Assembly: GCA_022606425.2 (NCBI GenBank)
Contig: JAHDVF020001307.1
Coordinates: 186,001-250,000, forward strand
Length of the DNA: 64,000 nt
Source of the DNA: Lepidostoma basale
Lineage: Eukaryota > Arthropoda > Insecta > Trichoptera > Lepidostomatidae
Reading direction: 5' to 3'
Shown here: in pieces, positions 4,890-56,700 of the stretch
Numbering within the stretch: the stretch's first letter is position 1
Layout of the letters: each line of letters starts with the position of its first letter
Notes under the pieces: model-generated
What the model was told of the DNA's origin: nothing
What the model saw: the letters and a program-made list of their open reading frames with translations, nothing else
Database searches by the model: none
Program-made: the position numbers and the translations under genes

Positions 4890-5095
4890 TTGGATGGGTA
4901 TGTATTTATTGTTTCTTGAACAATGGTGTAAAACTCCATATTAAATAATTAATATGAATGAAAACGTCTGTTTAGAAGTTTTATTATATTTTATGTGAAT
5001 AACATGTTTCCCCTGTCTAAGGCATAATCAAATGTCGATAAAATATAATACAACTTCTAGAAAACAGACATTTTCATTTGGTCTATTTATTTGTT
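4890..5095. repeat. Foldback palindrome A with degenerate ribozyme-like core
   Basis: The arms at about 4957-4995 and 5038-5078 are near-complementary and share GTCTGTTT, AGAAGTT and TATTATATTTTAT. The same repeat, including its left flank, recurs at 11695-11875. The minus strand carries GGGGAAACATGTTATT, matching the 3' half of the hammerhead-like motif of the other palindromes (GAAAC, two bases, GTT). The CTGANGA half is not intact. Confidence 0.55.
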
Positions 5096-5536
5096 TTTTG
5101 GGTCGCTAACAGTAGTCATATGCCAGATAACAAATTAATGTAATCCGAGTTTAGATTAGAATGTAGACATTTGAATTTTGTTTTACTTGTAACCATTGAA
5201 CCCGGTTTTGACAATGTCATTTATCTGTTGATACAGATAACAATTATTAACAAAATTTACTTTTAGAAGTTTTGGATAGGACTATAAATGTATTTATCAG
5301 TGAATTATCATGATCTATTCTCAGTAGTATGCAATCTTCCCGATAGAATTTTTGGTGTGCTACTTAATTATTTTTATTTCCTTTGATTCATTTAATTTAA
5401 CGGAGGTAATAAAACAACACATTGAAGTATTAAAAAATCATATCACATTTAATAATAGAGATTCACTTAAAACTACATAAGACATGGGTTCATAACAAAT
5501 TGTATTCACTTTTGATAAATCTAACTACATACAGCC
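5096..5536. other. 3' flank of B3GLCT
   Basis: There is no gene here. On the minus strand an ATTAAA at 5448-5453 and an AATAAA at 5373-5378 follow the B3GLCT stop codon and are candidate poly(A) signals. Confidence 0.35.
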
Positions 5537-5707
5537 TCATAATTCGATGTGCTTGAGTTTATTTCCTTTGTGCGACTCTATAAATTTGGAGTCATCCTTC
5601 TGAAACCACTGGCGGTACACGTCATCGGGGTTGAGCATCCAGTGCTTGTGAAAGGAGACAGGGCGATGAGGGGCAAGGTACTCTAGAGGGTAATCCATGG
5701 GACGGCC
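5537..5707 (-). CDS. B3GLCT: B3GLCT exon 10 (C-terminus)
   Basis: It encodes residues 403-459, with RPMDYPLEYL and PVSFHKHW, which align with the end of animal B3GLCT. The acceptor is TTTTCAG. The protein ends in KLKHIEL, a KDEL-like ER signal. Confidence 0.93.
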   Translation of the reverse strand, partial: GRPMDYPLEYLAPHRPVSFHKHWMLNPDDVYRQWFQKDDSKFIESHKGNKLKHIEL

Positions 5708-8700
5708 CTGAAAATAAAACAATTCTTAAATACATACTAGTATACTAATTCATACAAAAGAATCTTTCGATGTGTCTTTTTTATTATTTATGCCCATTAA
5801 TAAGCATACATAATGAGTATACAAAAGAAATGCAGCTTTCTTAAGCCTTTAATGTCGAGGTTACAGCATGCACCCTGCAAAATAAGGCTATCCATTTATC
5901 TCATCATGGACCAGGATCAACAACTACACCTAGAATCAGGAATTCCTATGATAGATGAATTTATTCTGAAACTTGCCGAACATTTTTACAAAGGACTCCC
6001 TTCACATCCTAATCCCACATAAAAGACCACTCAAATTACGACCCAAACACCTCCAGCCGCCACAAGTGCACAAAATCGATCCTCCTTCAGAGGAACACTC
6101 TGGATCACACAAATCAAGCCCCCCCATAAACCAACAACTCACCAAATCACCTTTCCAACAATGTTCCCAACAGATGTAAGAGGAATAGGCACAAGACCTG
6201 AACCTCTGTAAGCCAGAGTGAGTTGTCCTGGGATGATGATGTCCAGCCATATCTCCATCTTTTTGACGGCCTTCTTGGTAGTCTCTTGCTGCTTGGGTTT
6301 TCATCTTTGACAATTTTCACAATTCTTGTATTTTCCATGCGGTCTATGTGGTCTCTCCAAAAGTGCCTTCTGCTTCTTCCCCATCATACTATGTCCTCAA
6401 CACTACAGACAGACCTTATCATTTCATTTCTGATCCGATCTCTGAGGATTTTGCCTGCGATGGAGCACAGGGTTTGCATTTTTGCTACTCTAAGGAGGTT
6501 CTTTGTTCTATTGGTATCGGCTCTGACCTCTATTTCATACGTCATGATGGGGGGGACTCATGCCTTGTCCAAAGCATCTAATCAATATAATGTTTATGGA
6601 ACCACCAAGGATGTAGAGGAAATCATCATTCTTAACTTTTACATATTCAGACAACTTAGTGCAGAGTAGTTGACTAGAGGTACTTAAAAAAAATCCCATC
6701 GTTAGTTTTTAGATAAATTTATATTACCTGGTGAAATAATGGAGAATGAATGAGCGGAACTTTGAGCCTATTCAGGCAGACCCCTAGCCACATGTCATCA
6801 GGTGAAGAGAGAGATGGACAAGAACAGTTGGCCAGTTGTGGTAGAAGGTCCACACTGAAGACGAACCCTCCTCCACCAGTCAAGTAGTCATAACCTGACT
6901 TTCCCTTCCAAATGTTGTAGCCATATCTTTCCCCGAGGGCAATGTTTTTCTCACCATAGCACGATAATATTTCACTCAGGCGAGAAATGCTGAAAATAAA
7001 ATTAAAGAAACTATAAAATGAAAGTATACTGTGATACAACTTTGTGAAATATGGTAATACTCAAATTTTCTTACAATTATTACAAATATAACTTTTTGGA
7101 TGCTAAGGACTGTGTATAAACAGTCTATTGAACTTGGGAAACAATATAAAGCTGTTTATTCTAACTGACTGATAGACTGGCTGGAAAATGCCTTTATTTT
7201 AACCAACTGATTACATATTTAAAAAAATAATAAATTAATTGTTAATTTACAACACTGTTAATATCACTATTTTTTATTATACACTTTTAGAGATGTTTGT
7301 AACACCCGATGATGCAAACATCGGTTAGCGAAACAGCTGTCGCGACATTCTCAAAATACTATTACTAACTAACTAACTAACTAACTATCACGCCACCTCT
7401 CCGGAGGGGTAGGCAAAAATAATGGAATGCCACACTGTTCTGTCCTCACATATTTCTCTCGCTTCCTCTACATTCATACATATTGTCATGCACGCATGTC
7501 GATTTCTCCGACTCCTCACGTGACCGACATTCAATATTTGATTGATTTGATCGTGCCACGTTTTCCTCCGCCTTCTTCTATTTCTAGCTTCGTTCACGGC
7601 GTTTACATATACCTTCTTTACCATTCTGTCTTCACCCATTCTTTCCTTGTGTCTAAACCATTTTAATGACCCTTTCCTTATTTTGTTCATAACGCTTTCA
7701 TTCGCATCACATTCACTTCTTATACTTGCATTTGTCACTCTATCATATACAGATTTGCCACACATTCGTCTTAGAGATCTCATTTCTACTGCATTTATTC
7801 TACTTTCATCCTTCTTTTGCCAGTTCCATGCTTCACTTCCATACATAAGGGTCGGCACAAAAACACCATACTATTAAAATATATATTTTGTTTAAGTGTA
7901 TACGATTTTTTTTATATTATAACAGTGTTGTTAATTTAAAAGTTAATAATATTAAAGTATCATAGTGTTTCGGTCAAAACAATGGACTAAAAACATTTAA
8001 TACAGTTATGAATACCTTAATATAGTATCATCATCTGCAATCACCAGCCATTTTATTTGGGGATAGGTTTCCAAGTTATTATTTAAATAACTAAGAATAG
8101 CAAGAGTTTTGGCACAATGTCCTTTGTCAGTGTTTGGGATACCTAAATCTACAGTTGGAATAAAACTATCTGAAACACAAAAAAAAAACATTTAAATACA
8201 ACATAATGGTATTTAACACGTTGCCTGTGGAGCACTGGAGTTCATCAGTTCCTACTTATTTAAAACCGAACGGTATAAGACCTGACCTGGACAGGGGTCC
8301 GCCATTGGAGTCCTCCCCTTACCACTGTCCCGGTCAGTGCTCTGCAGTCAACGTGTTAAAATAAAATAAAATTTAAATTATTTATTTGTTTAATATACTA
8401 ACCATTTTTATCACTGATGAATATTAAGTGAGGTATATACTTTCCCCAAGTCCGTTTTACTATCCTAACTCTGTTATCGTGGTATTTGTGGTAAGTTTTA
8501 ACGGCAAAAAATAGAGAGTCTAGCGATACAGAATCACCCTGAAAAAAGAAACAGGTTTGTAATTATAAGCTGGAAAATTATGTTGAGCATTCACTATTAA
8601 TATCTAATAAGATACTATTAATATCCAGATTATTGTACTTGAGAAAAGAAATCATATTTTAACCTTTAAACACCTGTGCGCCGCATGCAATAAAGGTAGC

Positions 8701-11700
8701 CCACTGCCCAAGCAAACATTTGCGAAAATTTGGGACCTACGAGTAGCTTTTATAAAAATAATTATATCTCTAAAATTAGTCATCCTATTTAGGTAAAACA
8801 AAAATCATTATGAAAATAAGAGATTGTTTATAATTTACAAAAGCTTCATTTGTTATAATTTCCCATTTTATATAATTACACGATAAAGTTAATATTTTAA
8901 TTTAAATGTTTTTTTCCTATGCCATATTTTAAAACATTTGTCTGTGCATAGACCTACAAGTATGTAGTTCAGGCAGTGGTATAGATTGTGTATTTTATTA
9001 GGCGGATCATAATAAAACAACGCATATCCCGAGTCGACCTTGTAACGCAGGTACAAACACTAATATTACGCATCATCACAAAAATATTTATCAGAACCAA
9101 AAATAAAATTATGGATCGGTATCTCAAATACATTATTTACTTAATCTAATATTCATATTTTGAATATTATTATCATAAATTAGTGTATGTAATCTGATAT
9201 TGAAATGCACCATAATCAGCAGTCCCGTACGGGACCGTTGGGCATTGAACGACGTAAATCTGTAGTCACGTACGGGACCACTGGGTGTCTAAAGGTTAAA
9301 AAACTACTTACACAGGCATCATAGGTCCTTGGATATGTTGCGCACATCGCTGAGGACACAACACAGAATTCCTTTTTGTGTGTGAGGTGCACACCAATAC
9401 CATCATCTAATAAATACTTGGCTAATTCATAAGATGGATCAATTGAAAACTCCGAAAAGTTATCAGTATCATTTATCTCTTGAAGATTGTATACCCTAGT
9501 AAAAAAAAGGACAAATGTTTAAAACAAAAGCAAGGTAAAGTACAATTAAAATATATATTAATCTTGTATTTACACTGCTTTATTTATGGGATGGTTTGGA
9601 CATATGGAACGAATGGAAGAGAGTAAAATGGTTAAAAAGTTGTACACAAACAGCGGTAGTGGTAAAAGAAACCGAGGACGACCGAAGAAAACATGGCATG
9701 ACCAAATTAATCAATTACAAAAAGGCGGCTACATTCGAAATCGGAATAATTGACGTGCGTGCATGGTACAATGAATGTAGGGAAAGCCCGAGAAGTACGC
9801 CAGGACAGAGCATTGTGGCGATCCATCCTCTCTGCCTACACCTCCCGAGAAATGGCGTAATGGTTAGTTAGTTAGTTAGTTTTTTCTTTATTTAAATTTT
9901 TACACTACCAACTGTTTTTGCTCCAAGGGAAGGAGTTTATCAAAAAAACTTAATTTTAACCTAATGAAGTGTTAGTGGGAGCGAAACTTGTTGGTTAGTT
10001 TAAAAAATAAAATAAACTGGTGTAAATTAAAATTTAAATTAAAAAAAATAAAATAAAGTACGAGCTACTGCACTTGATCATTTAAGGGCAAAATAGAGGA
10101 TCGTCGAGGTGTGAGGAGATGATGAATCTCTTGGCTCCGAAGCATTTGTGACTGGACTGGGATTGGAACAGTCGAGGCACTATTCAGTACTGCGCAATAC
10201 AAGAACATGCACTCTCAAGTGATAGTTAACATCGGGGCGACCCGACATAACCCATGAAATAAAGTGTAAAAACAAATGATATCTATTTTCATTTATTTTT
10301 TTAAGTATCACATCACAAATTAAGTGATTCAAACGGAAGCATAAATTACTATTCACAAATAATAACTGGATACATTTTCAAGATACCATTTGAATATCTA
10401 TAGTAAAAACCCTATCTTATTTTTACTTAAGTCTATAAAAGATAGGCACATGAAAATAAATATATTGTACTTTTTAAGAATTTACAATTATTAATGATGG
10501 TATGAAGTATATAAAGACAATAACAATCATGGTTAAACGGTTTTCATTAATCTTTAATCACTTGTTTTCAATTTAGTACTTCATTTGTTTACAGCTAGTA
10601 ACATTTTATTACTTAAACCAGAGGTCGGCAAAGTGCGGCTCCGGAGCCGCATGTGGCTCTATGTCCTCTTAAGTGCGGCTCTTTGGCCCTTCAAGTTCGA
10701 CTTTGGTACAAATGTCCACGAGCACAAATACCACAAATGTCCACGGAAAGAGTTACCATTGTCTACCAAAACAATGAAAGATTAAACAATTAAAATGTTT
10801 TCGAATATAACCATCCAGCAAATCGAAGTTCAGAAATTGATTTTAGTTTTATAGCCCACATATCAAGGGTTTTCATGAACTTTGTAAGACAGATTTGAAC
10901 TGACCTTCACGCTCTCCCATTTGGCCCCTTGTGAATTTTTTCCTGTGATGATACCTAATCACAAACTCATTTGGGAGCAAAATCAATAAACAGATTTGGC
11001 TCCCAATTTTTTTTTAACCGTTGTAATGTACGTTTTTGGCTCTTTGGCAAAAAAGTTTGCTGACCCCTGACTTAGACCATAGATAATTTTTGCTTTTACT
11101 TTTAAGATTAGATTACTTTAATAGACAAACTAAAAATTTGATAGTCAAAGCTCTTGGTGCAAAAACAATCATACATTCAGACTGAACAGGTGTGTTGAAA
11201 TCATTTTTAAATGAACAATAAATTGACTTACGTCCGCAAGAGTCCGATGCTCATAGCAAATCCTGAGGCAAAGTTTGGAAATAAGAAATTATCTTCAGTT
11301 AGAGCGAAGTGGTGTATAATAGTTGGTTCTGTGTCTTTTACACCATGTCCAATCCAGAAATCCTAAAAACAAATGAAAAGTTGATAAATAAAATATATAG
11401 CATAAAAACAAACAAGGTGCAGAGATATTGGTTCATTTACTTAGTAAACAGTTAATAAGATAATAAAAACCAAAAATTCTAACTTTAAAACAACAATATA
11501 AAGAAATGGAAACAATTTAAGATCATCATTAACTCTATAAACATTCTTCTTCTTCTTCTTCCTCAGCCTATTCCCGTCCACTCCTGGACAAAGGCCTCCT
11601 CCATTTGCTTCCATGTCATTCTGTCCTGTGCAGACTGCATCCAGGTTATTCCGACGTGTCTGTTTAGATCATCCTTCCACCGTAGTTGCATTACAATATA

Positions 11701-14700
11701 TTTATTGTTTCATGAACAAAGATGTAAAACTCTATACTAAATATTGATGAAAATGTCTGTTTTCAAGTCATTCGGATATTTGATAATGTCTAAGTAAGCC
11801 GAAACATGTCACTCCCATAAAATATAATAAAATTTCTAGAAAACAGACATATTCATTACAATGTATATAATAGAATCCTTACTTCCTTGTGAATCCTAAC
11901 AGTAAATTTTATAAATGATATATTTTGGAGTTATTCAAATAAGTATGATATATTCCATAATAGTTACAAAAACAAATCAAATATTTAGGTGCAACAGGAA
12001 AACATATATTTTTGAATGATTGGGAACAGAATATTTATTTCTTTTAAATGTGTAGGATAATAAATTAATGTACAATTGACAAGAAGTACTTAACCATACA
12101 TACATTTTCAGGATTGTGGCGCTTAAGTAAGCTGTGCATCTGATTCAGACGCACAGCAGTGTGGTCGTCACAAAAAACTACCCATTTGTGAGAGTCTTGG
12201 TACTTTTTATACAATTTTTTTATCTGCGGCAGCACTGTCCATGATCCAGGGGAACTGGACAATACAACAGTAGGAGGTTTCTGAAAATTATGAAGAATTG
12301 AGTAAGTAAGAGTAATTTGATTGTAATACCTTATCTAAAAAAAAAAGGGTTTTATTTTCACGAATAAAAAAAATATTAAAAGGGGGTCTCCCGTGGGGGT
12401 GAAAAATAGAAGGATGGAGCTTGCATCGGTTAAAGTGTGGCAGTCCATTCTTTCTGCCTGCCCTTTCAGAGAGACGGCATGATGGTAACTTAGTTAGTTA
12501 GTTAAAAGGGGGTTATATATTTATACCCTAGTACCATAAGTATAAGATGTTTTCATACTAAAATATACATTTTTAAAAACTATATTCATTATAATGTTTC
12601 TTGACTAGAATAACCCATTGCTATATACGATAATATAAATGGATGATATGCTACGGGGTTGGTAGCAAAAACCAGTACGCGCTGGTGCATTACACTAATA
12701 AGGGGAACGGCACGACATGGAAAACTGACATCGGGGTGGGATTCTGCAGGGTTGTAGTACCCCCTAAAACTCATCGATTGTTCGTGTAAGAAAGCGCAAT
12801 GGTCAGTCAATTTCGAGAAAAAGAGGAAAAAAAATGGAGTACTTGAGAATCAAAAACCAGTTTTGAACCTATAACCATCCGGTCAGTGGAAGAGCGCACT
12901 AACACCTAAGCTGTTTGAACAGTTAAGAATAGTGGCGATATTTCATTTGTATCTTCTCAGTCATATTCCTCATGATTGAGGATCATGTCCATCCTGTAAG
13001 CCATTGACCATGGCACGCCTTGTGCTCCTATTATCCGTTAGTCTCCAGGTTGCAGCTAAAGAGAGACCAGTCAGATCCCTGATTTTATCAGACCAGCGGC
13101 TCGCTGATCGTCCCTGTGGTCGTCTTCCCTCTACTTTGCCCACGATGATGAGCTTTTCAAGGTTGTCCTGATATATCCGGGCTATGTGTCCAAAATATAT
13201 GTGTCCAATATGTACGAGTATATGTATAAGCTAGGCTAAAAAACTAAAGGGCCTTTTTCTCGAATTTTTTTGACCGTTGTGTGACCGTTTGACAATCAAA
13301 TTCTCATCCCAAAATCAATTTTCATTGAGAAAATAATTTTTAAGCTTATTTTGAAAAAAATCTTACTATATAAATTATACAGTACACTCTTCCGGGGTCC
13401 GGTTAACCGGGAAGCGGATTATTCGGGACACTTGAGTCATTGAAAAAATATTTTATAAAAACAAAAATATTTCCCAATAATACTTATAATGCAAACAAAA
13501 ACTCAAATCTGTTACAATGATATTGGGCGTCTAATTCATAATTGTGTCACCGCCAACATACGTTTTTGTATTTGCAATAAAGCACCCGCAGCGTAGTTCA
13601 GACTCATAAAACATTGTCGTTAATTTTATTTTACGGTGAAAAAGTGTTTATAATAATGGATAAGCGCAAACAAGGCGTACCTAATTAATAAAAAGAGAAA
13701 ATTGATAGATTTTGCGGTTACATCGGATAGCGCCGAAGGCATTTTACATGTTTTCGGATTGACTGGGAAATCGATTATACGGGATTTTTTTTCACCATCC
13801 ATCCCGAAAAATTGAGAGTGTACTGTACATATACTGTACATCTTTGAAAATGATGAAATACCGGTTTGTCTCAAAAGAAAGGTCTACGACATGTGTATAC
13901 TGCCCATGATGACATACGGACTAGAGACGACAACTCTTACAGCAAAAAGTGTCCACAGGCTCAAGTGTATACAGAGGTCCATGGAAAGACAGATACTTGG
14001 TGTGAGCTTGCGTGACCGCATAAGGAATGAAGAAATCAGACGCCGTACCAGGGTTGCTGACGTCATGGACCGAGTGGCAAAATTGAAATGGCAATGGGCT
14101 GGACACTTGGCTAGACAGGGTGGCAACAGATGGGCTCCCAGGATACTCAGTTGGAGACCATGGGCAAATAGGCGAAGTGTCGGAAGGCCACCGATGAGAT
14201 GGACCGATGATATTGTCAAAAGGGTTGGAAAATTTTGGATACGAAGGGGGCAGGATAGAGACGAGTGGAGGAAATTGGAAGAGGCCTATATCCAGCAGTG
14301 GAGGGAAGAAGGTTAGCAAAGAAGATGAAGTAGACTGTACATGTAAATTATAACATAGAATCGCAGTTACTTTATTACAATAATAAATTATGATGCTACT
14401 AAAGTCTTTTTTTTAATCAGTTATAATTTGGCCTAGTAAAAAAACGGTTTGGCCTAAAATCTGATTGGGCTGGTAACACAGACATATATTATTAAACCTA
14501 GATTATAAACAAGAGATGTGAGTTAAGACGTACCGGTTGAGAGTTAGCCTGTTCCCTAATGTCGATCCTCAGGCGTTCAGCTAGGCTCGTGTGGTAGGGG
14601 TGCTTCTGGGTCATAATCACGAATAAGATTTCTCCATATTCTAAAACAACATTATTCTAATTAAATAATTTTCAAAAGAAGTTTGTTTCATCATAAATTA

Positions 14701-17700
14701 AAATATCATTTACCAAATGATCCCGAACCAATGGTACAGAGAGTACAGAGTGGTGCAAAATAAGCATTATGTGTTGAGTTTAATAGAACGAAACTGTATA
14801 TTTAGTTTTTATTATATACACTTGTTCTTATTTAGTGTTATAGCACTTATTTAGTGCCTATTTTACTTCAACCATTCATTTGATGATATTAGCAAAATGA
14901 AATGTGCCAATCGCATAAAATATAATAAATCTTCTAGTGATCTGACTGTTTTCAATTAAATAAAATAATAATACATTTAGTATTTGTATCTAAACCACTT
15001 TATTTGGTAACACCAACCGGTTTCGCTCCCTCCGGAGTTTCGTCAGGGTGAAAGAGTAAACTGTTAAGTTATTAGTTTACTCTCTCACCCTGACGAAGTT
15101 CCGGGGGGAGCGAAACCGGTTGGTGTTATCAAATAAAGTGGTTTAGATACAAATACTAAATATGTATTATTATTTTATTTAATAACGTCACACCACAAAT
15201 TAATTGCTTCATACGAAAATTTAAAAAGATGATTTCTATCAATTTAATCTTATCAGTTCTTTTGCTAAAATCAATATGATTAGTGTAATAAATCACTCCA
15301 AAAACTCCAATTCAAAAAATATTTTCCAAATATAGAATATTAATCCATTTATCTCTTTTTAATGTTTTTTCTCTGGTAGGTACTTTGTCTAATATTAATT
15401 TGCAAATATTACATACTTAGGTTCTTGAATTAGTTAGGTTAGTTTATATCCCGTTATATAATATACCGTTCTCTCGATGATAGCTATGTAAAACCTTCTA
15501 AAAGTGATGGGAAAATTAAACAAAAATGATAAAAAAATATTGTTTTTAATATTTTTTCAACATTGAAGAATAGAAATTAAAATTATTCAAGTCATTTTGC
15601 GAGATCGCGTACACAGAAAACAGTAAAATAATTACGACAATATACTCGATATATACTCGTAATAATATGGTTTCTGATATAAGCATTCGTTTTGCGTTAT
15701 CACTTTATCAATATATTTTTGTTATGGTTTGTTAACACCACTAATCTGGGGTGGTGTTCCTAAAACTGTGACCCCGGCTCTCCTAGAAACGACACAATGT
15801 CGGCAAACCTTTCACCACAATGGCAAGAGAAAATGATAAAAGAAAGGCAATGCCTATTATAAATAATACTAGCACGCACGAATTTATAATACTTTTATCT
15901 ATTGTCTACAAATCTTGATATAATATTGAACATTATTATAGTGAAAAGAAAACACGTAACATTTTCAATAAACTTTTAATAAATAAGGTGATTTAAAATA
16001 TTTATAATATATTATATTTTTACCAACATTAAAATGAATGCCGATTAAATTCAGTGCAATTAAATATTAAAAAATATTCTAATTATAATTTTATAAGAAT
16101 ATATAAACAAGCCACATATAAAAAAAATATTTTGTAATTGTAAATTTCAAAAAAAAAAAGTAGTGTACATTTAGTTCAAATCCACTAATGTTTGTGTCTT
16201 CGATCGGTTTCGGCAGCTCGCTGCCATTAAAGAAGACCAAAAGATGGCAGCGAGCTGCCGAAACCGGTCAAAGACTCAAACATCACTGGATTTTTACTGA
16301 ATATACATGTAGGTTAAATGCATAGCCCACATAAGCGGACTTCGACTGCTGAACCAGCATATTTCATGATGAAATATAGTACACGAATAACCGAAAACGC
16401 CTGACTTAGGACCTACTTATCGAAACGCTGAATCAGGGCCGAGATTCATTCACTAGGTCACTAGAGCAGAGCAGCGTGTGCAGAGGGAAGCAAAGCATAT
16501 AAAAGCGGTACTTCCGACCACCCAATCCGTCAGTCAGTATTACGGCTTCTAACAGACACGAGTCTACGTTAATAAGTCTACGCCACGAGGGATCTCGGAC
16601 TCCCTCTCCCGCCGATCTACGAAGCCACGCTACTACGTCATTCCTTCTTGCGACTTCTAACCGACACGAGTCTACGTCGTCAAGTTTACGTACAAAGAAC
16701 CCCCGACTCTCCCACCGAGCTTCGCTACTGCCTACACTGCTACGCCACGTAACTTCCGACGAGTCTTCGCTCCAGCCGACCGACGCTACTACCCAGCGAC
16801 CCATCAGCCCCAGCTGCTATCGACGTCCAAGCGCACGCTCCATCACGAGTACATAATACTGTTAACGTATGATTACTTGTGATCCGCAATAAACGCTGCA
16901 ACGTTCACCGTCTTTCAACCCTCACCACAACTCCCAAAGTGGTGACCCCGACGTGATCGGACTCCCCCAAAGTGGTGACCCCGACGTGATTCGACTCCCC
17001 CAAATACATAAAAAATCATCTTTTTTATTTTCATTATGCCTCATATAGTTACGTTATCGTATTTAAATCAATTAACTAAAATATATTAATAAACATGATT
17101 TGCCGTATTAGCAAAATAAAAATCGAAATATAAAATTTCCTCTAGGTGTTAGTAACACCAGATTGAATAAGGGGCGATTTGGGGTAGAAATGTCCCTCGG
17201 GATGATTTATCAGGCGGATATTGGAGAAGAGAGTAACGGGGGTGGGGGGGTGGTAGATATTGAAGTCTGTTCGGTACGTGACAAAAATGATCGAACATAG
17301 CACAAGACTGTTCGGAATATACACGGTGTTTGGGGGTTAATTGTGTTTCTCAAATTAGTTTCATTATAGAATACTATATTTTACTGTCTCAATCATTTTG
17401 AAAGCATTTGAAAATAAACTAGAAAGTCATAGAAAAAACAAGCATAGCTAAAGAACTGCTGATTCAAAGTAAAAGGTGGAACATATTGGTCGTATTATAA
17501 GATCAACAACAACAACAAACCATCACGCCGTTTCTCCGCAGGGGTAGGCAGAGAGAATGGACCGCCACACTACTCTATCCTGACATACCTCTCTAGATTC
17601 CTCCACATTCATACATCGAGTCATACACGCACGTCGATTCTTCTGGCTTCTGACATGACCAACCTTTAAAATTTGATTAATTTGGTCATCCCATGTTTTC

Positions 17701-38700: not shown

Positions 38701-41700
38701 TAAATTGCTAATTTGGAATAATCCACCGACATAATAAACACATTAACAAGTACGACCTAATATTGTATTTACACTAGTACACATATTTTTTTTAAAAAAG
38801 GCGCGGTGCGGTAAAAAAAGATTGGAAACCAATGATTTAGATCAATTTTATTACCCATGAGTATTTAAATGTGCCTAATTGCTGCCTATTATTTCAGGGG
38901 GGAAATACATGAAATTTTTCAATGCATATATTTTTCCGCTATGACACTTACGACGCTAATATATACACAAGTACGCATATTTTTTTCTAAAAAAAGGGGT
39001 GGTGCGTTATAAAAAGATTGGGAACCAATGATTAAGATCAATTTTATTACCCATAAGTACTTAAATGTACCTAATTGCTGCCTATTATTTCAGGGGAAAT
39101 ACATGAAATTTTTCAATGCACATATTTTTCCCATTATAAGGGCAACTCATGACAGATAAATAATATATATGTGAAATTTATCCTCTAGATCTACTCCCTT
39201 GAAAAGATATTTCGATCTTTCTTCTATATACGCCATACTTTGTGTTGTTATGATGGTTTATTTCTATTATTATTTTTTATAAATTTTGTATATGCAACAC
39301 TTATATAATATTTTAAAAAATAAAATTACATAGGCATTTTTCGGACAAACAGTCCTTCTTCAGAGATACATAATATTTTTAAAAATGTATCGTCATAATA
39401 TGTATCACTGAAGAAGGACTGTTTGTCCGAAACACGTCTGTGTAATTTTATTTTTTTAATATAAGTGTTGTATATACAAAGTATATAAAAAAGAAAAAGA
39501 GAAATACAAGATATTTCGATCGTTTATTTTATATATGAGGGTATTAGTTGCAAACCTAGCAAACTCCATCGTTAGATGTTTTGAGTAAATCGCAAAAAAC
39601 TGATACGCTAATAAAATGCGCTTTTTTACGATATTTATTTTTTTCATCTCAACCAGTCAGTATTTTAAAAGTAATCAGCCATGAAATAATCATCATTATG
39701 TTGATAATTAAAGTAAAATAATGAATTTCATTTTGGAGTTTGCCAGCTTTGCAACACTCAAGTGGAGGTTGCCATGTTTGCAACAAACCCTATATTTCAA
39801 TAGCAAAATTCTTCAGAATGAAGCCGAATTTGAAACTGAAAATCAATAAAAAATGTGTGCAAATGTATTATGAATAAGATCCAATTCATATCTCACTTTT
39901 GATTGTTGGTGGAGTTTGTCGGGTTTGCAAATAATACCCTCATATATCCTTTTTGAAAAAAATCTTATGTAATATTCTGCAGTCTTTTTATTTGTTTTAA
40001 AACAGACAAAAAAAATAGGAGATAAAAAAACAATTTCTTGGGGTTCGATAATATTGCTAATAGCCAGTTTAATAAAAAAAATCATCAAATAATACAAAAA
40101 TCCTCAATTTTGACGACCTTCGCGGTAGAGTGGCAAGAGCTCTGACTGCCATACCGTAGGTCCCGGGTTCGATTCCCGGCGATTGCAGTGTGGTTGTCAC
40201 ACTGTCTTTGGTCTGGTGTAGAATTCATGTGACAATAAAATGGCGATATATTATATTAGACATGGACCTATCACACGTCATGAGAATCAATATAATAGCT
40301 AAAACAAATTTTATACAGTAATTGGGTTCAAACGGCCTGTTTTTTTTATTTAGAAATAACGAGCATAATACTCGTATAATCTTATTTCTTGAAATTATAG
40401 TATGGTGCACTCAAAGCCATAACTGCAAATAGAAATATATCCACAGAAGCAAAGATGGCAGTACACAATGGAGTTCTAGTGCCAACCCTCATGTATGGAA
40501 GTGAAGCTTGGAACTGGCAAAAGAAATTGAATTGAGATCACTAAGAAGAATGTGCGGGAAAACTTTGTATGATAGAATACCGAACGATGAAATAAGAAAG
40601 AAATGTAAGGCAGATGACTGCATCATGGATAAAATTAAAAAAGGATCTCTGAGATGGCTTGGACATATGGAACGAATGGATGAGATTAGAAGTGTTAAAA
40701 AGTTGTAGACAAGCAGCGTGAGTTGAAAAAGAAGCCGAGGACGACCGAGGAAAACAAGGCATGACCAAATTAATCAATTACTAAAAGGCGGTCACATTTG
40801 AAGTCGGAATAATCTACGTGCGTGCATGGTACAATGTATAAATGTAAAGGAATCCCGAGAGGTATGCCAGGACAGAGCATTGTGGCGATCCATCCTCTCT
40901 GCCTACTCCTCTGGGGAAATGGCTAGTTAGTTAGTTAGTTAGTTTTCCTTAAAATTACAGTATTTATCTTAGCTTTGATCAATGTTATAGGTACCTACGT
41001 GTTAGATTCATAGTACATAAGTTATCTATGTTCTTACCCGCACAGAAAAATACTAATAGTATTTCATCTATGGTAAATGGCGGGTTCCTACCAAATTACG
41101 TATCGGAAAATGGAACGAAAAAATAAACGAACGCCGTATCGTGTCGGAACATTTGAAATTTGAAATTTCCGAGGCGCATAGCCGTTCTTGTCAACGAATT
41201 TACCGCCGAATAAGAAATAACTATGGTCGTATTATCCGTTAACGATCCGTCGGAGATTCGATGGCCCGTGAGCGTGGCGGGTAGCGTGATCCCTCCTATT
41301 AATGCCCCATAACCGTCGCTTGGTGGCCAATACACGGCCATCCTTTCTCGGGGGAAACGTTGGAACAATAATAAATACAATTAATAATATGAAGACTACA
41401 GGGGAAAAACAAGGAATGTCAGTAGAAGGTTAATTAGAATAAAGCTAATCAAAGTCTATATATTTCTTAGCAATTAGCAATCGATTATCTGGCTAGATTA
41501 GCCAGATAGTCGATGAAACACATGATTTTTGGATATGAAAATTTTACTGTGAATAGATACGTACAAATGCCGCTAGATGGCATTATTACATTTATTTTGA
41601 ATTTTAACTGACATTCCTTGTTTTTCCCCTGTAGTCTTCATTTGAGGGCTGATCATTAAATCAGAAGATTCATCCATCTTCATTCAGAAGATGGCAGCGA

Positions 41701-44700
41701 GCCTCCGAAACCGGTCGAAGACACAAACATCAGTGGATTTTAACTAAGACTAACTAACTAACTAACTAACCATCACGCCATCTCCCCGTAGGGGTAGGCA
41801 GAAAGAATGGACCACTACACAGTTCTGTCCTGACATACATTTCTGGATTCCTCTACATTCATACATCTTGTCATGAACGCACGTCGATTTCTCCGACTCC
41901 TCGCGAGACCGACATTTAATATTTGATTGATTTGATCGTGACACGTTTTCCTCGGCCTTCCTCTATGTCTAGCTCCGTTCACGTCGTTTACATATACCTT
42001 CTTCACCATTCTGTCTTCACCCATCTTAGCGACCCTTTCATTATTATGTTCATAACACTTTTATTCGCACCACATTCACTTCTTATACTCGTACTTGCAT
42101 TTGACACTCAATCATATACAGATTTATTTATTTATTTATTTTATTTATTTATTGTTATAAACGGAATATATTCCAATACATTATTTTCTTACAGACAATT
42201 TACTTAAATCTATGAACATTTTTAGAGCAACGGTAAAAATTAAGCCTAAGACGAGTTAAGTCTGTGCGTCTATGCAGGTAAGTATTGTAATAGGTTTTTT
42301 ATGAAAAAAGGACACTATTATAAATAAGAATACAGGTTTTAAAGATAGGACATAGTTAAAATTAAGAATACAGGTATAAGATTATTAACGGAGAAGTACA
42401 ATTATAAAACTAAGACTACAGGTAGGTATATAGATTATTTAAGGACTACAAAAAGATTACAAAGGACTCATTCAAATCGACATAGAAACAGAAGGTTCGA
42501 AAAATTACGTTCATTAATACTATGAACTAGTTTAAAAATAAAAATAAATTAAGGGTTTGGTAGAGGTCGATACTTTTTAAGTGAAGAAATAAAGGAATTT
42601 AGATTTATTCCAAAAAAATCTAAGTCATGACAAGAATTTGCCAGTCTAGTCATTCTCGGTATAGGTGCATTATATCCATAGTTGGTTTTATGTAGATTTT
42701 CGCGGAAAAGTTTAAAATTCCTTAAATTTCGGGTTGGTATATTAAATTTTATACTGTCGAGTAGACAGGGTGCATCAAAGTGTGAGTTTATAATTTTGAA
42801 AAAGGAGATTAAGTCATAATTACTTCTGCGATTAACTAGTGGTGAAATATTCAGTAGTGTTTCCAGGTCGGAGTAGGAATAGTCTTCTCTATCAAGTCTT
42901 AGCATTCGACCAATTTTCCTAAGAAAACGATGCTGTACGGACTCAATATTGGAGATGTGAATTTCATAGTATGGAGACCAGACTACTGATGCATATTCTA
43001 AGTGAGGACGAACTAAGGCACAATAGAGTGATTTAAGAGTGGATATGTTTTTGAAGTCGGAAGAAATTCTATTAATAAAGCCAAGAAGTTTATAGGATTT
43101 GTTGACAGCTAACTCAATATGTGAGGTGAAAGATAATTTGGAGTCTAGTGTAATTCCTAGGTCGCGTATGCAGGTTTCACTTGAGAGCTGTATATTGTCA
43201 ATGCTGTAAGGGTAGTTAATTGGAACATTTTTCCGAAAAAATCTCATAATTTTACATTTGCTTGTGTTTAATTTCAGGTCATTATGTACACACCACTCAT
43301 AAAATGAGATTAAGTCAGCTTGAAGAAGTAGACAATCTTCGGAAGTATTTATGACTTTAAGAATTTTGTTGTCATCCGCAAATAACCAGAATGAGGAATT
43401 ATTAATTGACTCATGTACATCATTAATAAATAGATTAAATAGTAAGGGAGCAAGGTGGGCTCCTTGAGGTACGCCAGAAGTTACAATTATAGGATTAGAC
43501 AGGAAGTTGTTGATTCGTACAATTTGTTTTCTGTTGTTGAGGTAAGATTTGATAAGTGAAAGAAATGGGTCTCTTATACCGAGCGCATGTAATTTAGAGA
43601 GAAGAATATGGTGATTGACTGTATCGAAGGCCTTGGAAAAGTCAGTGTAAATTACATCAAGTTGTTGACTTTGTTCAAGACCTTTTACGATATTATCAGT
43701 AAAAGAAAGAAGATTTGTTGTTGTCGATTTCTTGGATCTGAAGCCGTGTTGTTGATTGATAAGAATGTGAGTGAAAAGTGGTGTTATTTTGGCCGTTACA
43801 ATAGATTCAAATAATTTCGGGATATGTGACAAGATAGAAATAGGTCGATAGTTTTGGATATCCGCTTTGTTGCCAGTTTTGAATATGGGTTGAATATAAG
43901 ATAGCTTCCATTTTTCGGGAAATGTTCCGCTTGTGAGAGAGTAATTGAACAAAGTACAGAGAGGTTTACATAGAGTGCTTTTACATTTTTTGAGAATTAT
44001 TTCGGGAATCAAATCCGGTCCTGAGCAGGATTTACCTATGAGTGAGTTTAATTTGATGAGAACATCAGAGGGTTGTAACTGAAGGTGGTTTAAGTCAACT
44101 GTTTTATTATAGTTTATTACACGGTTATGGTTGTTTGTATTGATGGTATACACAGAAGAAAAATGAGATGCAAGAAGGTTGGATATATCTTGACCATTGG
44201 ATGCTTTAGTATCATTAAGAAACATATTTGAGGGTAGATTATTGTCCGTTCTTCTTTCGGCAACATAGTGCCAAAACTTTTTAGGATTAGAGTTTAATGT
44301 TTTTTCTGTTTCCTCTATATAGGAATTATGACATAACATGGATTCAATTTTACATTGCGATCGAAGATGAGAAAATTGTTTATAATAAGTTAAACGGCCA
44401 GTAGATTTGTACAATTTGTGGACTTTTTTTTTCTCGAATATTAATGTTTTAAGTTTTGAATTGAACCATTTGGGAAATTTAGGTGGAGAGAAAATCCTAG
44501 TAGGAATAAATTTTTCAATAGCCTGGGTGAGGATAGAATTAAAATATAGAAGGCTTTCATTAATATCATCTGTTTTGAAGTGGGAATTCCAATCTACTTG
44601 TTCGAGGAACTTATTCATTTCGAAATAATTACCATCGGTATATTTTTTATAAGAAGTGTTTTTTGAGCTAAGAGATTCAATTTTAGATGATGTTCGAAAT

Positions 44701-50700: not shown

Positions 50701-53700
50701 GTCAATTAAATTATATTTAAATAATCACAGGTCGCAGTGTTATAAAAATAGTTACTGTGTACAAAAGCGTATTAAAAATTTGTAAAAATCGTCAATTTCA
50801 TTAGAATAACGTTATTTTCAGAACACCGTGCATAGATGCATATTCAAACTACATGGACGCAATATTAAAAAAAAATCGTTATCTTGAATAGCCATGAACG
50901 GGATTTTTTTACAAAATGGCGTAATAGCAGCCACTAACATTTTTAATTTTAGAAAATGGTCGCTGAAATGGTTACACAGAGTAGTTTGCGATGTTCTTGT
51001 AAAAGCCGTGTAATTTAAACTCGAGTTTAAGTATCGAATCCGCGTTGGAAGTGTGAAGTGCAAATAAGAAAATAAAACAGTGCAGTTGGAAGTTCAACGC
51101 TTCTGAATAATAAAGCCAAATACACTGGAAAACGCTTAGAGCTGTCTGGTTAATATGGCCGGGAGTGGAAACTCCCTGGTGGAAACTTCTGCGAGTGTTA
51201 GCTTTCAGAATCTCGTTCAATTTTATACAATTTTGAAAACTGGATAAAGATTTGTTTAAATAAAGAAAACCGTTCTTACCGTTTATGTTTGTAGAAACGA
51301 AAAAAAATTCGACGAATTCAAGAATTACGATTTTTAGGAATTAATTTATTTTTTACACTATCACTCAAAATGAAAAATGAAAAAAACAAAGTTTTAATTC
51401 ATCACGTTTTGTTGTTTCAAAATACAAAATAAGTATTAGAGTAAATTATTTTTTATTTGTTAATGCGGTGCGAATGATGGTGTTATGAACAAAATAATGA
51501 AAGGATTATTAAGATGGTTTGGACACATGGAAAGAATGAATGAAGAAAGAATGGTAAAAAAATTATATATTAACTATGTAAATGGAACTAGAAATATAGG
51601 AAGACAGAGGAAAACGCGGCACGATCAAATAAATCAAATATTAAATGTCGGCCACGTGAGGAGTCAGAAAAATCGACGCGCGTGCATGACACAATGTATG
51701 AATGTTGAGGAAGCGAGAGAAATAAGTCAGGAATGAAAAGTGTGGCAGTCCATTCTTTCTGCCTATTCCTTAGTTAGTTAGTTTTTATTTTTTATATTGT
51801 ATAATATTCAATGTTTTGTATCTTGAATTCATGCAAGGAAAATCATTAAAAAATCTTGTTTACTATTATAAATTAATAATGGAGTTTCACAAAACTAATA
51901 CCCCAACCATCAATAAATTATATTGCCGGAAATATAGTCTTCGGAATAATTTATATACGGGATGGCGTAATACTAATATAAAAATACATTTTTTAGAAAT
52001 AAATTTATGATTTTATTATCTGCATTTAATCAAAATATTACATACTTGGAAAAGACTCGTTTATTTTAAATTGAAAAAAATATAGGAATGGGGATTATTG
52101 TGAAAATTACTATAGCGATTCTAAAAAAGATACCATAAAGATTATTTTGCGCCAATCTGTTTTATTTTTCTGTGTAAAACAAACGACTGAATAAAAAAAA
52201 TCGCTATTGATTAAATGTATAAAATAAAATTTGTATTGATTTTAATTTCTGATACCAAATCAAGAATAGCGAAGATTTTTTCAAGAATTATAAACACTGT
52301 TTATTTTTCCCTTTTGAGTTTATTTTAAGTGTTTCGAAGGTTTTATACCTTCATCATCGGAATAACGATATAAACTAAATATTAAAAAAATATTCCATAA
52401 ATCATAGGAATACACTTTTGAAAAAGGACTACCATTGATCAAAAACTTATTATATTATGTTAGATACGGTTATGTGGTACTTACGTAGGGAAGATACTGC
52501 GACAAGTGCATTCGCTATAACCAGGCAAACTGCAACAATAAATAAATATTAGTAAAACAATAAAATTAATAATCAATCGGTTGGTGGCCTAGGGTACAGA
52601 ATGGTTGACTCTCGATCCAGGGAAATTTGGCTCAAACCTGGGCATAACCGGATTTCTTCATCATAATAATGAGCTATTTTCACTCATATTGGCGAATGTA
52701 TTATAAATTTTAATAGCATTCATTTAAATAATTGATGCTAGTTATAATAAAATAGTCTGGTTCAGCTGAGGGAAGTACTGTCTTTATTATAAGTGTGTAT
52801 TTATTTAACTTATTGAATGCTAAGGCATTAACCCTGTGGAATTCCATAGTATTATACTTAGGAAATTGAAAAACTTTGTTTAATCCACTATTTAATAAAA
52901 AATATTAAAAAATACGACATGTATCGGAGGATACCTCCATCTTCAGGTGTAAAAATATAATAAAAACTAAACAAAGAAAGACAATTATTTTATTAGTCTT
53001 TCTTTGTTTAGTTTTTATTATATTTTTACACCTGAAGATGGAGGTATCCTCCGAAACATGTCGTGTTTTTCAATATTTTTTATTAAATAGTGGATTAAAC
53101 AAAGTTTTTCAATTTCCTAAATATATTTATTTTATTATTCTGTTATTCATCTTATGTTTCTCGCTCTTTCTATTATGTATGAATTATTATTGTGTTTCTC
53201 TAACTATTATCAATAGTGTATTGAAAAATAATTCTGTAATGCTTTGGATATATTTAAATAAATAAATGGAAATTAAAAAAATGCCATTTTCAATTAACAT
53301 TCTAAATTGAACCTTTTGTTTTTTTTTTATCGTGGATAAAATTATTAAAAAAAAGTTTTTAACAATTCATACTAAATCTACTACTTTAATATATAAAAAA
53401 GTAAATAACAATTTTAGACAAAAGAATGATACTATAGTCGAACTCGGTTATTATGATCAATGAAATAGTGTAATCTCAGAAGTAACGAGGAAACAGATAT
53501 TTCATGTCTTCATATTATGTCCGGAAGACTGCCAAAGAGTTGGAAGGATAGCTGGGAGTCAAGTTCCTAAGAGAGACCAACATGACTACAGGAACAGGCC
53601 AAAGATCTAAAAGGAGAAGATGCGATGGGTATTTTTGTAAGCATTTAAAAAATACTTATTCTCGGATATAACGAGTAATGCTTATAACGAGAAAATTAAA

Positions 53701-56700
53701 TCGGCCCCATCTTCCTTGTGATAACCAAGTTCGACTGTATTTTGAAAATTAGTCAAAAAACCGATTTCGAAATTAATATTTACATACCGAAAAGTTTCGA
53801 AGGACGCATCGTAGCAAACTAAACTACGTTATATTTCGCTACGAGTAACAGGCGAACGGTGTGGCTACGACCGCTACGCCAGGCGAACTAAACACGATTG
53901 GGACTGAGCTTTCTCAGGTAGAATTTACTTGAAGTGTTAAGAGAAAACGTTCGATCGCCTTTTCAAAATAATCTCATAAGATGTTTCACATGAGGTAATC
54001 ATTGTCTGTTATGGCACAATTGAAAGTAAATTCACTTGGGATATAACGACTTATAACTAGGGCTCGGATTTATATTCCCTAAAAAAGTTAAAAATATTAT
54101 TTTATACATACTTGCCAAAATATGCTTTTATATTCTCTAACCTTATATTTACTGTTAACTAGAAACAAAAACATGATCTTATCTGTGACAAACTATTTTT
54201 TGTATCGTACAATTACATATTTTTATATATTTTCGGGGGTATGACAGCCGATTTTTTACAATTTTTATTTAGAAGGAAAAACGAACTCTCGAACATGTAT
54301 ATTGTGCAATCATATATTTTTTTATTGCTGAAATTAGATCGTTCTTTACAGGCGAAAATGTTCGTACTTTTAAGCAACCCTTTGCACCCTGTGGGGTAAA
54401 CAAGTGACATAAGCCATATCAGTTTAAAACTCCTTTAAATAGTCTCCGGCTTTCAACATATAGGCTGCACTGTCCCATATAAGGGTGCATACATTCTCCG
54501 CCATGTCCAGTTTTCCTTGCCACTACAGTAACAAGTTCAAAAAGGAGACTACGTACAATAAGGATAAAAATATTCCATTTAAATGCTCTCACCCCGAGAA
54601 CCCTAAAATATTCTTAAATATTCGATAAACCCTGAAATATGCTTTTATATTTCCTAATAACTAGGGCTAAAGGGCGTATATATATCTCAAAACATAATAA
54701 AATGGCGTCTTTTTAAAGCCCCAATAAAGCGAAGCCCAGGAAAAAAATATGCTTTTTTGTCAATTCCGAACCCTACTTACGAAATAAGTTAAGAAATTCA
54801 ATAATTAAATCCATAGTTAAGAAAATTATTACTTAAATAAAATTGGTTATATACAAACTGATTTTATTTTCTACACACATTTTATTTTAATTTCATCAAA
54901 AGCTACACAAAATAAAAGTTGTTTTTTTAAACCCAAATGATGTGTTTTTTTGGATCTAGGGTACATTCGTGTATCTTGATATTCTCTACAGGTGATGTTT
55001 CGGAGATTGTTGCAGTCTCTATCTTCCATCTACCTTGAATATGAAGGCTGTAGCGATCTCCGAAACGTTGATCAAAGAGGATGTACCTAAAATTAAATTC
55101 TAATAAAATATATCATCAATATGTGACGAATATCGAATATGACAAATGTGCAATATGACGAATATGAAGGAATACGAATATAGAGGTTCCACTGTATATG
55201 TATAATAAAAATGTAATTGAGTATTTCTTAATATATAGGTATTTTTTTAAAACTGCTTTTAAAATGGTCATATTTTAGAATAAATGTTTCGCGTATACGA
55301 TTTTAAATTCTGAGCTTATCTTCGCAAAATAAAAATTGTTTCAATATCACGTTTTTAGGAAATACTAAATATATATTGGTGTGGAGTGTTTTACTACACG
55401 GCTGCGAGACTTGGTGCCTAGGCGAAAGAGAGCGCAAAAGGCTGGAGACATTTGAAATGTGGACCTACCGACGAATTGCCCATGTTTCATGGAGGAACCA
55501 CGTTACAAATGAGGAGGTTCTCAGCAGAGTTGAAGAGAATAGGCACATGAATAGGCACACAACACCATAGCGGAGAGGCGCGCGAGATGGATTGGTCATG
55601 TGTTGCGACACGATTGTTTCCTGCATGATTGGAGGGAATGGTCGAGGGATCGATTGGCAGAGGACGACCTCGCCAGGAGTACCTAGACCAGATTTACCGA
55701 GATATGGGCTGCACCTCTTATGGGGAGTTGGAAGAGAGTTGCCGAGGACCGAGCGGAGTGGGAGAGGAGATACGTCGCCTTGCTGCATTCCAATCTTTAG
55801 ATTGAGACCGGAGAAGAAGAAGTATGTAAGTAGTAAGTAGGGGTCGAAATTGACATAAAAACTTTTTTTTCCCTAGCCTAGCTTTAAAAAAGACGCCGTG
55901 TTTGTGTGTTTTGCGATCTATAGACCCCCTTTAGCCCTAGTTATTAAGAATATCAAAACATATTTCAGGGTTTAACGAATATTAAAGAATATTTCAGGGT
56001 GAGAGCAATTAGGTGAGATTTTTTTACTATGCCCATATTGTATGTGGTCTCCTGTTCGAACTTAATTAACGATTGAATAGACAAGCAAAAAGTAAACAAT
56101 AAACGTCGTGACGTGAATTTTTTTTAACAATGAACACACCAATTGTGTTTTCATTTTTCAAAAAATTACATCTACGAGGTCTGTTCAAAAAGTATCGCGA
56201 ATTTTGAATTTCCGCTGGCTACGTATATTTGATTTTTGATTTTTTTGTAGCGTTATGTTGGTACTCATGTCCCTTACTTATGCTGACAAGGTCGGCCATT
56301 TTGAATGTTTAGTTAATTTTTGACAGCTGTTTTGCTTGGATGTGTTTTGGCTCGTCTTCGATTTTTGCCTATTCCAAAAAATGGATCAAAGAATCTGTAT
56401 CAAATTTTGTGTGAAAAACAAAATAAAGTGCGCGGACGCATTTCGAATGTTGACTGTGGCATATGGTGAAGCTACCTTGGACCAAAGCAACGTTTATCGG
56501 TGGTACAAAATGTTCTCAGAGGGCCGAGAAGATATGAACGACGAAGAGCGTGCCGGACGCCCGAGCACGTCAACAACAGACGAAAACATTGATAAAGTGA
56601 AGAAAATAGTATTAGCCAATCGTCGAATCACCGTTAGAGAAGTTGCTGAGGACCTAAACATATCGATTGGCTCGTGCCATTCGATTTTAACCAATGATTT

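Follow-up and report, generated by a model that had tools for sequence, protein, structure and literature searches.

Penelope-like elements (PLEs) are the closest described systems for a group of palindromes that we analysed in a window of 64,000 nucleotides from the caddisfly Lepidostoma basale (GCA_022606425.2, contig JAHDVF020001307.1, positions 186,001 to 250,000). Pen families of the rotifer A. vaga carry inverted, head-to-head pseudo-long terminal repeats (pLTRs) which form palindromes with a one-sided tail (PMC3846280); inverted pLTRs and 3' extensions are also described in PMC8969392. The purified protein of an Anolis PLE cleaves both strands and extends them, and it begins reverse transcription within the PLE RNA, at two internal start sites whose interval equals the tail (PMC11167929). 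Thousands of minimal type I hammerhead ribozymes are present in many metazoan genomes, mostly dispersed and some of them in PLE pLTRs, and they may work as dimers (PMC7761336, PMC6155905).

Inverted repeats are plentiful in the window (48 pairs, of which the 25 longest were detailed). A sequence-only reading had listed 13 loci, palindromes and single arms, about a dozen of which were thought to share a hammerhead-like core. Our analysis indicates that these foldbacks are probably pLTR-only insertions of PLEs, in which two short copies are joined head to head. They are read as PLE inserts because their outward 3' ends and their tail on one arm match the anatomy of two PLE loci elsewhere in the genome, named L051 and L052. 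This assignment draws on several observations: the motif itself, the covariation of its stem I, its presence beside PLE open reading frames (ORFs), the head-to-head order, outer ends that fall within a narrow span, a tail confined to one arm and, at some loci, target duplications. The arms come from several families (here labelled F1 to F8) with a common layout but no common sequence, which is why they look unrelated.

An exact core was searched in the window as CTGANGA, a stem II of at least 4 bp and GAAAC..GTY. Five such cores were found (15090, 28932, 39408 and 53032 on the plus strand, 32941 on the minus strand) vs none in 30 first-order Markov shuffles, and with up to two core mismatches nine sites were obtained vs a shuffle mean of 1.3 and a maximum of 3. 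Within the genome (769 Mb, 1,572 contigs) the pattern CTGANGANN{9,20}CGAAACNNGTYG had 10,851 exact matches (5,451 + 5,400), the reversed pattern 0 + 1. From 30 short and 20 long genome stretches plus the window we collected 55 different cores, with 0-2 extra bases permitted before stem II and duplicates across overlapping loci removed; members of one family are not independent of each other in this set. A single extra base between A9 and stem II is present in 52 of the 55 (A in 30, T in 22), none in two and two in one; the five exact window cores have one in four cases and two in the remaining one. The stem of family F3 has 3,324 genome-wide matches with one extra base and none without it, in agreement with the sequence-only reading, which had called this base systematic. 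As a control served IMG/VR, with criteria slightly unlike those of the 55-core count: a stem II of at least 4 bp was present in 11 among the 120 matches listed, eight of them with no extra base, one with one and two with three. With this small number IMG/VR was dismissed as a source of relatives and is useful as a control alone.

The search criteria account for part of the stem II pairing, but they placed no demand on stem I. In the 55 cores its positions 1 to 4 pair in 44, 38, 41 and 33 cases (shuffled means 35, 22, 22 and 22), position 5 in 13 (shuffled 20) and position 6 in 31 (shuffled 22). In 48 of the 55 the segment A-C-loop-G-U can pair with itself, with letters that vary by family (AT, CG, TA, AGCT), as would be required for two molecules to form a dimer through a common stem III. 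A covariance model, R1, was made from 26 cores, all from outside the window (other loci, same families). Their stem I has 64% standard pairs and 32 double-change cells. Across the entire structure the paired cells, the double-change cells and the covariation were higher than in any of 500 shuffles or any slid version; pairs with a double change were as numerous as in shuffles (7 vs 6.9).

Applied to the window, R1 found 12 sites at E <= 0.0041, which lie in eight of the 13 listed loci. Both arms are supported at 14954, 32849, 39276 and 52860 and one core each at 16175, 28842, 7285 and 41683. These eight are the part of the earlier claim that stands. The scores at 9899 (0.12), 11695 (0.13) and 52326 (0.51) are weak, and since an unlisted site at 25687 (0.14) scores about like the first two, such weak sites are no evidence; at 4890 and 54930 R1 had no match at E <= 5. 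Features of the minimal PLE hammerhead (CTGANGA, stem II, GAAA, NUH, stem I and a near-absent stem III) were present at these eight of the 13. The sequence-only reading was correct in recognising a hammerhead-like core of type I whose stem III is nearly gone, as reported for PLEs. A textbook type I hammerhead, with an Rfam match, stem II straight after A9 and a real stem III, was not found. An Rfam scan of the window gave no hammerhead match, either at gathering cut-offs or at E <= 5. RF00008, the sole hammerhead family searched genome-wide, had no match, but was also silent in 14 of 14 control genomes and is therefore uninformative. The extra base and the self-complementary stem III provide a model that detects the window motifs where the Rfam scan does not. 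Rfam matches to microRNA families in the window lie on palindromes, below the cut-offs, and were rejected as foldback artefacts.

PLE frames are found elsewhere in the genome. Locus L052 has a 758-aa ORF with RVT_1 (1.4e-13) and GIY-YIG (6.6e-05) domains, flanked by a core downstream and an inverted core upstream (R1 E 1e-06 at each end). L051 is a truncated PLE pair in head-to-head order, with arms of about 980 nt (98.8%), cores at the outer sides, a tail on one side and the 12-bp direct repeat CATAAAGCGATT on both flanks (by eye). L031 and L044 are diverged C-terminal PLE fragments (45% over 66 aa and 33% over 104 aa), and after each of them a core begins at a distance of no more than about 250 nt (R1 E 5.7e-05 and 0.0026). 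With the L052 ORF as query, 59 PLE matches were scored of 3,702 candidates, 21 of them with at least 750 aa without a stop, and the copies are arranged in tandem (C308, C502) as well as in divergent head-to-head order. A GIY-YIG domain search gave 62 genome matches with five divergent pairs visible; a PDB sequence search gave one weak reverse transcriptase (RT) match. In the window itself the L052 ORF had no tblastn match, so that the absence of a Penelope frame there, which the earlier reading had noted, holds in this narrow sense.

At C308:2096145-2107985 two tandem PLE copies per strand face apart, and all four frames are open. The GIY-YIG match on C102 (L053) was rejected as a PLE, as it reads like bacterial UvrC (by eye). 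This contig (1.6 Mb) has an open UvrC-like sequence at 22850-23450 and is possibly a symbiont or contaminant contig; C729 (L054), which like C102 was a top GIY-YIG match, may be similar.

An inverted arm was detected within 900 nt of 37 of the 55 cores vs 50 of 300 random places. For 52 cores (three lay too close to a locus end) the inverted copy was upstream only in 31, downstream only in one, on both sides in one and on neither in 19. Further measurements were made on 29 foldbacks, leaving out those with arms below 40 nt, with a reach of less than 50 nt past the core start or near a locus end. In 24 of these, 80-109 nt separate the outer arm end from the start of the core. The core-to-core distance varies between about 0 and 914 nt and is 17-50 nt in 16; the widest core pairs may be separate insertions. 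A tail of about 40 nt with an ORF start, called above the 99th percentile of 1,500 random 80-mers, is present on one arm in 22 of the 29 foldbacks, on none in seven and on both in none (P 0.0012 vs random dealing). The tail queries came from four of these foldbacks (L011, L048, W39407, W53031); without them the count is 18 of 25 (P 0.007), again with none on both arms. If only foldbacks with a core spacing of up to 200 nt are counted, it is 18 of 24 (P 0.005), and with both filters 14 of 20 (P 0.027); two-sided tails never occur. The ATG of the tail opens ORF-like reads, such as MSHHKLSASYES (L011), MSYHKVSASYEN (L014), MSNHNVSASYEN (32849), MEFHRVNALAFNK (52853) and MNFHQEISVKSFDY (L051), five chosen from 45 candidate reads. 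By a loose pattern, 16 of 78 long database PLE proteins begin similarly, e.g., with MEFHQV or MDFHQV. Target duplications measure 12 bp at L051 and 14 bp at 39204/39508, and their sequences are unlike.

For F1, the 40 best genome places scored all match on both strands, the query itself being palindromic. The centres of the window copy and six fetched copies contain AGTTTACTC in 9 of 14 arms, and centreward of it lies a short filler varying by locus. Five of these seven centres (W15089, L176, L177, L179, L181) differ from one another in their filler. AGTT resembles an arthropod initiator, and for this reason the arm ends may mark transcript starts.

The R1-supported loci of the window are composed as follows.

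7302..7345, plus strand: single-arm hammerhead-like core, F8 (R1 E 0.00045), adjoining a (TAAC)n/ATCACGCC repeat
14955..15183: F1 foldback (arms 14975-15161, 93 nt, 92%)
15011..15050, minus strand: left-arm hammerhead-like core, F1 (R1 E 1.9e-06)
15086..15125, plus strand: right-arm hammerhead-like core, F1 (R1 E 1.3e-07)
15184..15225, plus strand: one-sided F1 tail, with ACG for ATG at this locus
16164..16307: F4 foldback (arms 64 nt, 86%)
16234..16273, plus strand: right-arm hammerhead-like core, F4 (R1 E 0.0006; left arm 16198-16231, E 0.46)
28877..28970: short decayed foldback (arms 25 nt, 92%)
28928..28968, plus strand: hammerhead-like core with two extra bases (R1 E 0.0038; exact regex)
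32800..32848, minus strand: one-sided F2 tail, reading MSNHNVSASYENW on this strand
32849..33071: F2 foldback (arms 32878-33041, 79 nt, 90%)
32906..32945, minus strand: left-arm hammerhead-like core, F2 (R1 E 6e-09)
32974..33013, plus strand: right-arm hammerhead-like core, F2 (R1 E 0.0009)
39204..39217, plus strand: left copy of the 14-bp target site duplication AAGATATTTCGATC (exact repeat at 39508-39521)
39218..39258, minus strand: one-sided tail of foldback 39276 with ATG, reading MAYIEE (frame by eye)
39312-39459: inverted arms of foldback 39276 (65 nt, 89%)
39329..39367, minus strand: left-arm hammerhead-like core (R1 E 0.0041)
39404..39442, plus strand: right-arm hammerhead-like core, F5 (R1 E 5.3e-07; exact regex)
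39508..39521, plus strand: right copy of the 14-bp target site duplication
41681..41720, plus strand: single-arm hammerhead-like core, F4 (R1 E 0.00057), adjoining the same (TAAC)n/ATCACGCC-type repeat
52807..52852, minus strand: one-sided tail reading MEFHRVNALAFNK
52853..53125: foldback (arms 52853-52987 and 52991-53125, 135 nt, 96%)
52912..52950, minus strand: left-arm hammerhead-like core (R1 E 3.6e-06)
53028..53066, plus strand: right-arm hammerhead-like core, F3 (R1 E 6.7e-09)

At 39276 the duplication AAGATATTTCGATC encloses the tail plus both arms. A further PLE foldback, absent from the earlier list, was found at 34491..34673 by blastn to L051/L052 (87.5% over 80 nt, 91% over 45 nt). 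Its left arm holds a decayed core (34534-34574, minus strand; R1 E 0.16); the right arm is cut just after the place where a core would sit, and has none, and the tail runs to 34673. The remaining listed loci comprise the following features, and the palindrome at 9899 is not among the 25 longest inverted pairs.

4973-5059: inverted arms (95%)
9957..9996, plus strand: weak core-like site (R1 E 0.12, not significant)
11738-11865: inverted arms (77%)
11776..11814, plus strand: weak core-like site (R1 E 0.13, not significant)
52323..52364, minus strand: weak core-like site, single arm (R1 E 0.51, not significant)
54997-55066: inverted arms (77%)

The pairs at 4973-5059 and 11738-11865 have alike outer arms (AGAAAACAGACA..TTCATT), which flank an inner GAAACATGT stretch resembling L044, and represent a different nested repeat. 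Another inverted pair lies at 37730-37987 (arms 69 nt, 91%, spacer 120 nt). An abundant repeat of the form (TAAC)n-ATCACGCC..GGGGTAGGCAGA is located at 7353-7769, 17514-17860, 28021-28410, 33073-33474, 37069-37448, 41751-41996 and 61457-61832. It abuts the PLE arms at 7285, 32849 and 41683, and like sequence is present at L022, L025 and L045; reversed, it resembles a retroposon that carries a (TTAG)n tail and favours AT-rich PLE ends. Further features of the window are a malectin gene at 2646-3449, whose top named database matches include moths, butterflies, locust and cricket (74-78% identity), ORFs of the long interspersed nuclear element type with RVT_1 and Exo_endo_phos domains, which are not PLEs (24376-27497 and 42549-45404), a Mariner-type transposase with a DDE match (56336-57442) and a Mos1-type helix-turn-helix fragment (49151-49732).

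If the foldbacks are PLE insertions, each arm would be a short copy that begins near the transcript start, spans the minimal hammerhead-like motif of type I and stops around the start of the RT/GIY-YIG ORF. Reverse transcription would be primed from both strands of a staggered break, and each side would use a different one of two internal start sites separated by about 40 nt; each complementary DNA (cDNA) would run off near the RNA 5' end, and the cDNA ends would be joined with few filler bases. Two such facing reactions, copying back to the RNA 5' end, would leave a head-to-head palindrome with one tail. If the ribozyme is active at all, it probably works on tandem PLE RNA, either in dimeric form or assisted by the PLE protein. 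Ribozyme action within the foldback RNA is unlikely, because this RNA is predicted to form a single hairpin; for 52853-53125 the predicted fold is one long hairpin (-185 kcal/mol, z -33.7).

A further proposal, which we put forward tentatively as possible rather than probable, is that PLEs integrate by a double target-primed reaction which is obligatorily lopsided. Of the two strands of a staggered break, one would always use the distal RT start and the other the proximal one, and the cDNAs would run to the transcript 5' end upstream of the ribozyme before their ends are joined. If this is true, the thousands of dispersed animal ribozyme stubs would be its shortest products, and the transcript start could be read from their centres. 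A PLE origin of the foldbacks would give a one-step account of the minimal hammerheads dispersed outside recognisable PLEs in this genome, as stubs of internal initiation. The one-sided tail is a footprint against simple snap-back self-priming and makes the order of PLE insertion events testable from genome data. PLE ribozymes and inverted pLTRs are already known. In the literature surveyed we met neither a count of lopsided tails nor the interpretation of dispersed hammerheads as PLE stubs, although either may have been published, and no papers on foldbacks with hammerheads were apparent in it.

Several observations weigh against the assignment to PLEs. The core of L051 and L052 is CTGTCGA, which departs from CTGANGA at A6 and, judged from its letters, may be inactive, and the PLE pLTR on C308 (L055) has no R1 match at E <= 1, its degenerate motif being seen by eye alone. 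The best places listed for F1 and F3 include none that adjoins a PLE ORF, F2 not having been searched, and the link of the common families F1 to F3 to PLEs is by tail and layout only. The tail is missing from seven of the 29 foldbacks and the loose start motif from 62 of the 78 long PLE proteins. Flanking repeats of at least 10 bp occur in seven of the 29 foldbacks vs 2.9 expected, a mild enrichment. The F1 centres L178 and L180, on different contigs, have the same filler and one difference in 71 nt, so that some palindromes may have multiplied as units or may sit in a duplication. In addition, PMC11167929 reports no strand difference in the start site in vitro, and a strictly one-sided tail is not predicted from this.

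A PLE origin could also be combined with self-priming, in which a single cDNA folds back and copies itself; PMC3846280 discusses and favours this on an antisense template, and the high similarity of arms within a locus (96% at 52853, 98.8% at L051) would be in line with it. The snap-back of one cDNA predicts mirror-image ends, however, whereas the tail is one-armed in 22 of 29 foldbacks and two-armed in none, and the filler differs at five of the seven F1 centres compared, which makes this route unlikely. Still less probable are free-standing non-autonomous foldback elements that multiply as palindromic units by borrowed machinery. The 10,851 core matches, the palindromic nature of all 40 best F1 places (though the query is a palindrome) and the common centre of L178 and L180 are what such units would leave behind; against them stand the differences among the remaining five F1 centres, the core spacing from about 0 to 914 nt (the widest perhaps separate insertions) and the tails, target duplications and truncated PLE pairs, which are ordinary PLE anatomy. 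The sequence-only reading had proposed a separate set of this kind and is probably wrong on this point, since the genome has open PLE frames, cores at both of their ends and PLE-type tails on one arm.

Hairpins of DNA transposons resembling miniature inverted-repeat transposable elements (MITEs), with the motif in their terminal inverted repeats by chance, would share the AT-rich ends and inverted arms. This origin is extremely improbable: the single ORF-encoding tail makes the outer ends asymmetric, the direct repeats at two inserts are 12 and 14 bp long and differ in sequence, and no transposase was linked to the foldbacks, although no search was aimed at transposases. The core might instead be a conserved hairpin, as a binding or RT-start signal, and no ribozyme at all, which is compatible with a PLE origin. 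The nearly universal extra base, the families that deviate from CTGANGA, the missing Rfam match and the finding that a PLE ribozyme depended on protein, while insertion in vitro could proceed without the ribozyme (PMC11167929), fit a mere hairpin; the conserved CTGANGA and GAAAC, the GTY site, the covariation of stem I and the self-complementary stem III in 48 of 55 cores speak against one, and cleavage of PLE motifs is reported in the same paper. We consider a hairpin without ribozyme function rather doubtful, though slightly less so than self-priming.

Foldback elements and MITEs have long inverted arms with little between them, and in this they resemble the present foldbacks. Unlike them, the foldbacks of L. 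basale carry a one-sided tail with a PLE-type start codon, and symmetric terminal inverted repeats with a constant target duplication were not found. Like minimal type I PLE hammerheads, the cores here have almost nothing of a stem III, dimers are proposed for them, and thousands occur in non-coding metazoan DNA. Minimal type I or variant hammerheads of PLEs have reportedly been treated by Cervera and de la Pena in 2014 and by Lunse et al. in 2017. The base between A9 and stem II, present here in 52 of 55 cores, is a possible difference from these. Metazoan non-LTR (long terminal repeat) retrozymes are likewise non-autonomous repeats with type I hammerheads and possible mobilisation by PLEs (PMC7229834). 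They are described there as tandem repeats with circles of about 170-400 nt and canonical hammerheads, whereas inverted pairs, minimal cores and ORF-encoding tails are found here; tandem repeats with a canonical hammerhead were not seen, with no separate scan for tandem order. The closest agreement is with Penelope/Poseidon PLEs (A. vaga Pen, PMC3846280; Anolis PAc, PMC11167929). The sampled foldbacks differ from these in having about 110-150 nt of pLTR per arm and no ORF, and the ORF start, which lies inside the ribozyme in PAc, is located about 65 nt past the core in L051 and about 80 nt past it in L055 (core by eye). Shared with these PLEs are an ORF with RT and GIY-YIG, tandem and inverted pLTRs, palindromic junctions, a one-sided tail of 30-40 nt leading into the ORF and, at some loci here, short target duplications, and in PAc, as here, a hammerhead motif is placed at the junction of pLTR and ORF (PMC11167929).

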